NCBI GenBank assembly: GCA_011391285.1
Contig: JAABQU010000223.1
Location: forward strand, 1-25,616
Length of the DNA: 25,616 nt
Direction: 5' to 3'
From: Thiobacillus sp.
Lineage (GTDB): Bacteria > Pseudomonadota > Gammaproteobacteria > Burkholderiales > Thiobacillaceae
Positions 3,111 through 4,771 of this stretch are shown in pieces; positions within the stretch are counted from its first letter, which is position 1, and every line of letters begins with the position of its first letter. The notes below the pieces were generated by a model. That model did not search any database, was not told the DNA's origin, and worked only from the letters and a program-made list of their open reading frames with translations. The translations under genes were made by a program, and so were the position numbers.

Positions 3111-4491
3111 GGGGCGCTCCCAATGCCGGTGCAACCTGGCCGATGCTGCCGGCACCCATCACCAGCACCACGTCGTCCGCCTGCGCCAGGTCGCCCAGCG
3201 CAGCCGGCACGTCGGCGACGCTTTCCACGAACACCGGTTCGACCCTGCCCGCCACGCGCACGGCACGCGCCAGCGCGCGGCCGTCGGCGGCGACGATCGG
3301 CGCTTCGCCCGCGGGATAGACCTCGGTCAGCACCAGCACATCGGTTTCCGACAGGACTTTCACGAAGTCCTCGAAGCAGTCGCGGGTGCGGGTATACCGG
3401 TGCGGCTGGAACACCAGCACCAGCCGCCGCCCGGGGAAGGCGCCGCGCGCGGCCGCCAGCGTGGCTGCCATTTCAACCGGATGGTGGCCATAGTCGTCGA
3501 TCAGGGTGTACTGGCCGCCGCCCTTGGCATCGACTTCGCCGTAGCGCTGGAAGCGGCGGCCGACGCCGTGGAATTCGGCCAGCGCCTTGACGATGGCGGC
3601 GTCGTGGGCATCGACTTCGGTCGCCACCGCGATGGCGGCCAGCGCGTTCAACACGTTGTGCAGGCCGGGGTGGTTCAGCACCACGTCGAGATCGGCCATG
3701 CCCTCGCGCTTGACGGTGAACAGCATGCGGCCGTGTTCGAAGCGCGGGTTGACCCCGCGCACCTGGGCCGATTCGTCGAAGCCATAGGTGGTGATCGGCT
3801 TGGTGATGCGCGGCAGGATTTCGCGCACATGCGGATCGTCGATGCACAGCACGGCCATGCCGTAGAAGGGCAGGCGCTGGCAAAAGTCGACGAAGGCCTG
3901 CTTCAGCCGCTCGAAGTCATGGCCATAGGTCTCCATGTGGTCGGCGTCGATGTTGGTGACGATCGCGATCACCGGCGTGAGATAGAGGAAGGAGGCGTCC
4001 GATTCGTCGGCCTCGGCCACCAGGAAGTCGCCCTGCCCCAGCCGCGCGTTGGTGCCGGCGGCGGTGAGTTTGCCGCCGATGACATAGGTCGGGTCCATGC
4101 CCGCCTCGCCGAGGATGCTGGCGACCAGGCTGGTGGTGGTCGTCTTGCCGTGGGTGCCAGCCACCGCGATGCCCTGCTTCAGGCGCATCAGTTCGGCCAG
4201 CATCAGCGCGCGCGGCACGATGGGGATCTTCTTCTCGCGTGCCGCGATCACTTCGGGGTTGGATTCCTGCACCGCGGTCGAGGTGACGACTGCATCTGCG
4301 TCGGCGATGTTTTCGGCCGCATGGTCGCGATGAATGCGTGCCCCGAGCTTCGCCAGCCGCTGCGTCACCGTGTTGTCGGCAAGGTCGGAGCCCGACACCG
4401 CGTAGCCGAGGTTCAACAGGACCTCGGCAATGCCGCTCATGCCGACACCGCCGATGCCGACAAAGTGGATGTGTTTGACGGCGTGCTTCAT
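3100..4491 (-). CDS. murC: UDP-N-acetylmuramate--L-alanine ligase
   Basis: Cytoplasmic Mur ligase that adds the first amino acid, L-Ala, to UDP-MurNAc. The 463-residue protein has the N-terminal UDP-binding loop GIGGVGMSG (12-20), the ATP P-loop GTHGKTTT (112-119) and conserved downstream blocks such as DYGHHPVE and FQPHRYTRT. The start is ATG at 4491, giving MKHAVKHIHFVG, with GGAAGG 7 nt upstream. The frame stays open up to 4743, but that extension translates an out-of-register repeat and has no family resemblance. Unlike every other gene of the cluster, murC is separated from its upstream neighbour murG: 276 nt lie between them, filled by tandem copies of a unit that includes murC codons 1-12 (see the repeat at 4454-4771). 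Confidence 0.97.
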   Translation of the reverse strand: MKHAVKHIHFVGIGGVGMSGIAEVLLNLGYAVSGSDLADNTVTQRLAKLGARIHRDHAAENIADADAVVTSTAVQESNPEVIAAREKKIPIVPRALMLAELMRLKQGIAVAGTHGKTTTTSLVASILGEAGMDPTYVIGGKLTAAGTNARLGQGDFLVAEADESDASFLYLTPVIAIVTNIDADHMETYGHDFERLKQAFVDFCQRLPFYGMAVLCIDDPHVREILPRITKPITTYGFDESAQVRGVNPRFEHGRMLFTVKREGMADLDVVLNHPGLHNVLNALAAIAVATEVDAHDAAIVKALAEFHGVGRRFQRYGEVDAKGGGQYTLIDDYGHHPVEMAATLAAARGAFPGRRLVLVFQPHRYTRTRDCFEDFVKVLSETDVLVLTEVYPAGEAPIVAADGRALARAVRVAGRVEPVFVESVADVPAALGDLAQADDVVLVMGAGSIGQVAPALGAPHAA

Positions 4492-4631
4492 CGCGGTGCC
4501 TTCCGCTTCGGCGAGCTGCAGGCCGGCATCTGGCGCCACTCGCGGCCGGTCGCATCCCGCAAGCGGGAACCCTGCTCCCTGCTCGCAGCGACCATGCCGA
4601 CAAAGTGAATGTGTTTGACGGCGTGCTTCAT
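4488..4631 (-). CDS. 47-codon ORF fusing the MurC N-terminus to a novel tail (second leader copy)
   Basis: Begins at the duplicated murC ATG at 4631 and encodes MurC residues 1-12 (MKHAVKHIHFVG), then 35 residues with no family I recognise, ending PKRKAPR. The tail is basic (several Arg/Lys) and shows no membrane segment. GGAAGGGG lies 5 nt before the ATG, a good ribosome site. The TGA stop overlaps the true murC ATG (ATGA), so if translated it would feed ribosomes into murC. It cannot be a functional Mur ligase because the UDP-binding loop is broken after its first glycine. It may be a leader peptide or just a by-product of duplication; the sequence alone cannot decide. Confidence 0.4.
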   Translation of the reverse strand: MKHAVKHIHFVGMVAASREQGSRLRDATGREWRQMPACSSPKRKAPR

Positions 4632-4771
4632 CGTTGCCCCTTCCGCTTCGGCGAGCTGCAGGCCGGCATCCGGCGCCACTCGCGGCCGGTCGCATCCCGC
4701 AAGCGGGAGCCCTGCTCCCTGCTCGCAGCGACCATGCCGACAAAGTGGATGTGTTTGACGGCGTGCTTCAT
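4628..4771 (-). CDS. 47-codon ORF fusing the MurC N-terminus to a novel tail (first leader copy)
   Basis: Near twin of the ORF at 4488-4631, one repeat unit upstream; its last residues read PKRKGQR instead of PKRKAPR. Its ATG at 4771 overlaps the murG stop as ATGA and its TGA at 4628 overlaps the ATG of the next copy. murG, this ORF, the second ORF and murC therefore form an unbroken chain of 4-nt overlaps, although the 140-bp period shifts the frame at each step. The ribosome site upstream lies inside murG (GAGG, about 10 nt away) and is weaker than those of the later copies. The ATG here is probably the ancestral murC start position after murG. Expression is unproven. Confidence 0.35.
   Translation of the reverse strand: MKHAVKHIHFVGMVAASREQGSRLRDATGREWRRMPACSSPKRKGQR

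Follow-up and report, generated by a model that had tools for sequence, protein, structure and literature searches.

Tandem units between murG and murC of a Thiobacillus-like bacterium as probable copies of a small interspersed element of stop/start overlaps

The repeat array between murG and murC

The analyzed window, which is the whole stretch of 25,616 nucleotides, contains, on the minus strand, part of the dcw cluster of a Thiobacillus-like bacterium whose MurC was 94% identical to that of Thiobacillus sp. QR_Bin.21. Here, murG was identified by a score above the NCBIfam cut-off, and the name murC rests on close relatives together with three Mur-ligase domains. Between these genes, which are separated by a gap of 276 nt, TRF revealed a tandem array (4454-4775) with a period of 140, 2.3 copies and 93% matches (Table 1). 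Two complete units of 140 nt were followed by a third, partial copy, which is the first 38 nt of the true murC starting at 4491. The first-pass annotation had described 2.3 copies of a 140-bp unit bearing murC codons 1-12 in this gap, and both TRF and the alignment of the units confirmed this description. Each unit formed an ORF of 47 codons whose closing TGA lay inside the ATGA of the next start, as had also been described for both units, and the murG stop (4768-4770) likewise lay within an ATGA.

Table 1. Features of the murG-murC junction, in positions of the window
Feature	Position	Strand	Description
murG	4768..5868	-	upstream gene; stop TGA overlaps unit 1 ATG (ATGA)
unit 1	4632..4771	-	140 nt, made up of a copy of murC codons 1-12, the structured core and a tail that bears a Shine-Dalgarno-like site
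mini-ORF 1	4628..4771	-	47 codons + TGA; TGA overlaps unit 2 ATG
unit 1 helix P1, left arm	4734..4741	-	GTCGGCAT; copy of murC codons 11-13
unit 1 core	4679..4723	-	AGCAGGGAGCAG...TGCGACCGGCCGCGA
unit 1 hairpin P2	4695..4708	-	TCCCGC-tt-GCGGGA
unit 1 helix P1, right arm	4662..4669	-	ATGCCGGC; within element
unit 2	4492..4631	-	140 nt; 7 differences from unit 1
mini-ORF 2	4488..4631	-	47 codons + TGA; TGA overlaps murC ATG
unit 2 helix P1, left arm	4594..4601	-	
unit 2 core	4539..4583	-	
unit 2 hairpin P2	4555..4568	-	
unit 2 helix P1, right arm	4522..4529	-	
murC	3100..4491	-	downstream gene; first 38 nt are the third, partial repeat copy

The two complete units differed at 7 of 140 positions, three of which were scattered and four of which fell within the last seven. 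A repeat that is tandem and includes murC codons 1-12 could also have come from duplication of the murC 5' end in place, or from an assembly echo, with no significance beyond this locus. However, the units differed at these seven sites, in agreement with the earlier estimate of about seven and the earlier denial of an assembly echo, and the core was present as a single copy at murG-murC in other genomes as well as at other junctions; this explanation is largely contradicted, and we give it almost no credence. A pattern of the core (up to 3 mismatches) had 2 matches in the window versus 0 in 100 shuffled sequences. The Rfam search returned 0 matches at E<=1 across positions 4000-5200 of the window. 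At 16029-16317 of the minus strand, the window also has a gene for bacterial RNase P RNA of class A (239 bits).

Occurrence of the element in related genomes

The core pattern was found in 6 of 12 close genomes, at 7 places, and, with up to 3 mismatches, at 27 places among 199 relatives, 25 of which carried it, where the reversed-pattern control gave 0; one of the core matches (L088) is probably due to chance. Among 399 genomes of one relative's order, seven carried the pattern at 8 places, of which 4 had already been seen. When the hairpin was left free in the pattern, 59 places in 37 of the 199 genomes were obtained, while the control matched in 1 genome. A covariance model, run under strict filters on 120 related genomes alone, had 130 matches (E<=0.01) distributed over 54 of them, and some of these matches represented a shorter subtype of about 75 nt. 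By this model, the number of copies per genome ranged from 0 to 8 across the 120 genomes, which is a lower bound given the strict filters and the 37 scored candidates for each genome.

The places of the core pattern included sucC-sucD, a wrbA junction, a junction of a type I secretion ATPase, and murD-ftsW. Among the neighboring genes, wrbA, murD, ftsW, sucC and sucD scored above curated cut-offs, and murE-murF, LivG-LivF, kdsD-kdsC and the pair of rlmN and a TPR protein were assigned by partial or sub-cut-off matches together with the gene ends. Partial or sub-cut-off matches also indicated a corrinoid protein-URO-D pair and an electron-transfer pair like dsrM-dsrK, for which the DsrK model gave 226 bits against a cut-off of 400. 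In 11 of the 13 loci displayed (of 16), the TGA of ATGAGC was itself the stop of the upstream frame. Additionally, in-frame copies were present inside genes for HrpA (L215), a glycogen debranching enzyme (L089), an M3 oligopeptidase (L090) and a protein with a cytochrome-D1 domain (L092), and at these four loci a single open frame ran through the element and the gene. Elements at one junction are related, so that the counts overstate the number of independent events; the distinct junctions number about a dozen.

Rfam searches of 16 element loci gave only four weak microRNA-type matches, all in one locus (L109) and away from the element. A known Rfam RNA was therefore rejected for positions 4000-5200 of the window and for these loci. 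A description of the element was not found in the open-licence literature, where its peptide and DNA strings matched 0 papers. The first-pass annotation had noted that GATGCGACC is common to the part of the unit then called novel and to the murG 3' end, in the same codon phase, and had taken this as a hint of an older murG-murC junction. The shared string is indeed present in that phase; the proposed origin did not hold, because the core also lies between unrelated genes, and the match is most simply a coincidence. Derivation of the core from murG, and with it the reading of the novel part of about 100 bp as old murG sequence rather than as a small interspersed element, was rejected.

Two or more neighboring copies were also present at 11 further loci, of which four belonged to one shared junction, and the reliable spacings ranged from 98 to 149 nt. 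An additional array with copies 111 nt apart (L293) had been missed by the tandem-spacing pattern. The 13 tandem spacings left a remainder of 2 modulo 3 in seven cases, 0 in five and 1 in one; the last (L191, 94 nt) came from a lax pattern and may be spurious.

Several side features were observed in these loci. Two further repeat families (AAACGAAGTTTCGGCGCAGG... and CCCCACAAGGGGACTCCG...) appeared to be nested in the element after CGCGA: one set comprised L190, L194, L211, L093 and the second copy in L201, and the other comprised L110, L202 and the second copy in L204. Despite the nested insert, the mini-ORF read to the next start in L093, L110, L190, L201, L204 and L211. At two loci of one genome (L108 and L111 of G431), a second arm was inverted near the core, resulting in a longer palindrome. 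The sucC-sucD junctions of five element-free loci (L229, L243-L246) contained different inverted-repeat inserts (cacagag... and gttcccgc...gcgggaa).

We compared the murG-murC junction among 12 close relatives (L001-L011 and L044) and counted the units, a comparison that the first-pass annotation had suggested. Seven junctions (L002, L003, L004, L005, L008, L009 and L011) were free of units and had a plain ATGA overlap, and three (L001, L010 and L044) contained a single unit. One unit preceded by other extra DNA was present in L006, and L007 began inside a unit. In the genome of L007, two contigs (L086 and L087) both ended in the unit, as is usual where an assembly breaks at a repeat. In G066, a more distant genome, two complete units of 149 nt came after murG, with the start of a third at the contig end (L174), and the contig with murC started inside a unit (L154), which indicates that more than one unit is present at murG-murC there too. 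By eye, the open frame of the G066 units ran through the core in a different register, yet every unit ended with a TGA inside the GTGA of the start that followed.

Of the 68 rows of a MurC tree, 19 had the unit, and 15 changes were needed, at least 13 of them forced by well supported branches. Rows that lacked a murC start or upstream DNA, or that were below 70% identity (L087, L165 and L170 among them), were left out of this tree, as were L056 and L079 from its count, being false labels of a lax pattern. The carrier label was not clearly clustered on the tree, since 67 of 500 label shuffles were as low. From this patchy distribution it follows that the murG-murC junction gains or loses units often. 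The expansion and contraction suggested earlier was supported by the presence of 0, 1 or 2 units among relatives, by the tree, by the arrays at other junctions and by the two or more units in G066. We also observed an unrelated insert in the murG-murC gap of six Thiobacillus-like loci (L112, L119, L120, L122, L124 and L137); the insert contained repeats resembling heptamers (GGGGTCA, CCTCACC/CCTCACG), and the murG stop was displaced. The record of L003, labelled as a Rhizobium sp. MAG, carried a Thiobacillus-type murC (92%) that was placed among Thiobacillus-type rows in the tree, and it is probably a mislabelled bin.

Helices, reading frames and coupling

The core contained two near-invariant strands, AGCAGGGAGCAG and TGCGACCGnCCGCGA, which flanked hairpin P2, and alignments A1-A3 together with 77 listed instances had AGCAGGGAGCAG and TGCGACCG around the hairpin and no GTAG or CGTC head. 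As the conserved strands belonged to the search patterns, their invariance is partly a matter of ascertainment. The P1 arms were in no search pattern, and the P2 sequence was left free in the hairpin-free pattern. P2 was variable: its 30 distinct sequences had a mean stem of 5.67 bp, compared with 4.37 +/- 0.24 bp when the halves were swapped among elements, and the maximum of 2000 such controls was 5.13 bp.

Helix P1, which RNAalifold found unasked, paired the sequence immediately left of the core with a stretch within the element. Across 24 elements, P1 was 91.1% paired versus 81.6% in shuffles, and 17 cells were changed on both sides compared with 4.6 in shuffles (0/500). The P1 score was 17.9 for 40 elements versus 10.8 +/- 0.64 in shuffles, of which the maximum of 2000 was 12.8, and 18.1 versus 14.7 for 16 dissimilar elements (0/1000). 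P1 was out of register in several of the 24 rows (L091, L173, L184 and the second copies in L196 and L212). In L201 and L204, the right arm of the second copy is broken up by nested inserts, and these two copies were omitted from alignment A2 for that reason. These results showed that both P1 and P2 covary against swapped controls. Single-sequence folding was mildly better than in shuffles (z of -0.8 to -1.8 for six stretches, of which the L084 stretch lay off the unit).

In the 16 murC-type units, P1 was 97.7% paired, and the wobble base of murC codon 11 (C, G, A or T) paired with its P1 partner in 14 of them. A single P1 pair was changed on both sides in the murC alignment, which was no more than in shuffles (1 vs 0.9, 456/500). 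A third helix tried in these units was 86.5% paired, and covariation was absent from it.

The left arm of P1 was host sequence, either the copied murC codons 11-13 or the end of sucC, while the right arm lay inside the element. Among element-free sucC-sucD sites, 21 of 27 had a plain ATGA overlap by eye, and two of them (L234 and L240) had the same GGCGGCAT as the carriers L081, L098 and L107; this comparison covered the 32 of 35 loci that were displayed, the rest being without a sucD start. The murC-type copies had 2.6 differences in 36 nt from the murC of their own genome and 5.9 from each other, and this greater likeness to the own murC speaks for repeated insertion or gene conversion. The right arm may have been taken over from the host with the insertion or may have been fitted to it afterwards. 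As candidates for a target-site duplication of the MITE kind, an 18-nt direct repeat around L104 and the copied murC start were observed, and other loci shared just ATGAGC or a ribosome site. One tentative idea, to which we assign a rather low probability, is that an internal segment of 7-9 nt forms base pairs with the host strand immediately upstream of the insertion site, like the exon-binding site of an intron, and so would direct or template insertion at stop/start overlaps; the P1 helix and the mini-ORF would afterwards keep the operon translated, which would make essential operons safe sites.

The same structural data have to be weighed for the main rival explanation, a domesticated cis-regulatory RNA in which a two-helix fold with near-invariant internal strands would bind a protein or the ribosome and set downstream translation or stability, with the number of units as the dose. 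The matching P1 changes in murC-type copies (GTC/GTG/GTA versus GAC/CAC/TAC), the near-invariant strands outside the helices and the repeated presence at operon junctions agree with such an RNA. However, the downstream genes were unrelated, the presence changed often on the tree and the element was without an Rfam match; moreover, as the copies were nearer to their own murC, the matching arms may reflect repeated insertion or gene conversion. We consider a regulatory RNA to be unlikely on balance.

To describe the coupling, we used the 53 elements that start on an upstream stop, that is, the 53 of 71 elements that were separate mini-ORFs at stop/start overlaps; the other 18 were not mini-ORFs by the coupling test. 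Their frames ended strictly as ATGA or TGATG on the following start in 41 of 53, compared with 5 and 12 for the two alternative frames. Under a lax criterion (-11 to +2), the count was 46 of 53 versus 8 and 30, and because the control frames reached these values, the strict count is the informative one. Seven mini-ORFs failed the lax test (L087, L172 twice, L194, L202, L216 and L213): L087 was at a contig end, L172 ran in frame into the next gene, the next ORF was under the limit in the available DNA for L194, L202 and L216, and L213 was a real exception. A Shine-Dalgarno-like 4-mer was present at 44 of 48 starts overlapping the stop, compared with 12.6% of tail positions. The geometry of a translationally coupled relay, in which a stop overlaps the next start and a ribosome site is present, was found across the element family, which supports the coupling chain proposed in the first-pass annotation. 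In alignment A1, the next ATG lay 140 nt after the first in 15 of 16 murC-type units despite their diverging tails, and the sixteenth was at a contig end.

The peptides themselves were not kept in this way. The right strand was read in different frames by subtype, as SREQGSRLRDATGRE, SREQGPRQAGMRPAAN and SREQCLPPRGGRCDRPR (DATGRE, GMRPAAN and CDRPR), and variation at the end of the murC-type tail was similar across the three codon positions (0.45, 0.37 and 0.45). In the copied murC codons, third-position variation was 0.24 versus 0.03 and 0.06, as in the real murC. A search that admits only 0.55 to 1.75 times the query length gave 96 predicted proteins related to mini-ORF 1, of which 93 were 46-48 aa long; one of 62 aa had an extended start, and two of 79 aa contained an in-frame insert. 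In the latter two (P0093 and P0095), the insert of about 32 aa lay between SREQ and RLRDAT.

In a leader-peptide relay, a possibility raised in the first-pass annotation, products of 46-47 aa would act on the ribosome or in the cell. Such a reading could draw on the uniform length of these proteins, within the limits of that search, and on the codon-like variation in the copied codons. The latter would also be given by exchange with murC, however, and the changing frames and the even variation of the tail speak against a leader-peptide relay. The conserved peptide or codon signature of a leader-peptide attenuator was found in neither the core nor the tail. A function of the peptide was rejected on these grounds, and such a relay appears highly improbable. 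Since the peptide frames differ between subtypes, the sequences point to conservation of the structure rather than the peptide, and the passage of ribosomes, not a peptide, appears to be what is kept.

Comparison with known elements and proposed explanation

We compared the element with known small repeats by means of the published accounts cited here. RPEs are described as lying in frame within Rickettsia genes and as having conserved peptides (PMC10969869). Like them, the present element is small, structured and able to sit in frame inside genes, as at the four loci above. Most copies here were separate mini-ORFs at stop/start overlaps, in contrast to the RPEs, and the conserved encoded peptide of the RPE account was absent here, as the subtypes change frame after the hairpin; the element is set apart by that account and not by sequence. 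REPs have GTAG or CGTC heads and often a high copy number (PMC2817692, PMC3733652), usually over 100 per genome (PMC2817692), and an action on translation has been proposed for some REPs close to stop codons (PMC12306157). As described in the cited passages, the REP/BIME elements of RAYT transposases resemble the present one as short hairpins near gene ends, some of them intragenic and some held to affect translation (PMC2817692, PMC3733652, PMC12306157). They differ in that the element here was without a GTAG or CGTC head, had few copies per genome (at most 8 by the model, as a lower-bound count), built its outer helix with host sequence and formed an open mini-ORF as its unit.

ERIC-type units carry ORFs (PMC2759123), and the enterobacterial ERIC/RU elements are alike, by description and not by sequence, as small mobile sequences with ORFs that are sometimes within gene loci (PMC2759123); stop/start overlaps go unmentioned in the cited part of that description (PMC2759123). 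More than 30% of E. coli gene pairs are reported to overlap (PMC7538156), and the ATGA/TGATG geometry here was the same as that of translational coupling by overlapping stop and start codons, as described there (PMC7538156). In contrast to plain coupling, an inserted element was interposed here without breaking the geometry, and could be repeated. The element is thus RPE- or REP-like yet fails the tests of the head, the copy number or the conserved peptide, the RPE comparison being one with the description cited.

Taken together, we consider it probable that the two units are tandem copies of one interspersed element of about 75-100 nt and of a mobile type, which recurs at stop/start overlaps and is tolerated as a relay that preserves coupling. 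Its dispersal suggests that the element is mobile in origin, and insertions between coupled genes would survive when the ribosome is kept moving. A ribosome that ends murG may restart on mini-ORF 1, then on mini-ORF 2 and then on murC, and by such a relay an insertion into an essential, coupled operon could be tolerated. The copied murC starts form direct repeats, and recombination or slippage between them would account for the gain and loss of units; recombination could thus either return the junction to its clean state or lengthen the array by one unit. The nucleic-acid structure, rather than the peptide, would serve the spread of the element itself and may secondarily tune the output of MurC; both reinitiation and any effect on MurC are predicted here from sequence.

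Most descriptions of small interspersed elements place them in intergenic DNA or, in frame, inside genes. The present family occupies stop/start overlaps as an open relay, including the cell-wall junctions murG-murC, murE-murF and murD-ftsW, and its closing helix borrows host sequence. If this explanation is true, the family would allow the limits that translational coupling sets on insertion to be studied in nature, together with the origin of mini-ORFs and the way in which the arms of an element come to match host DNA.
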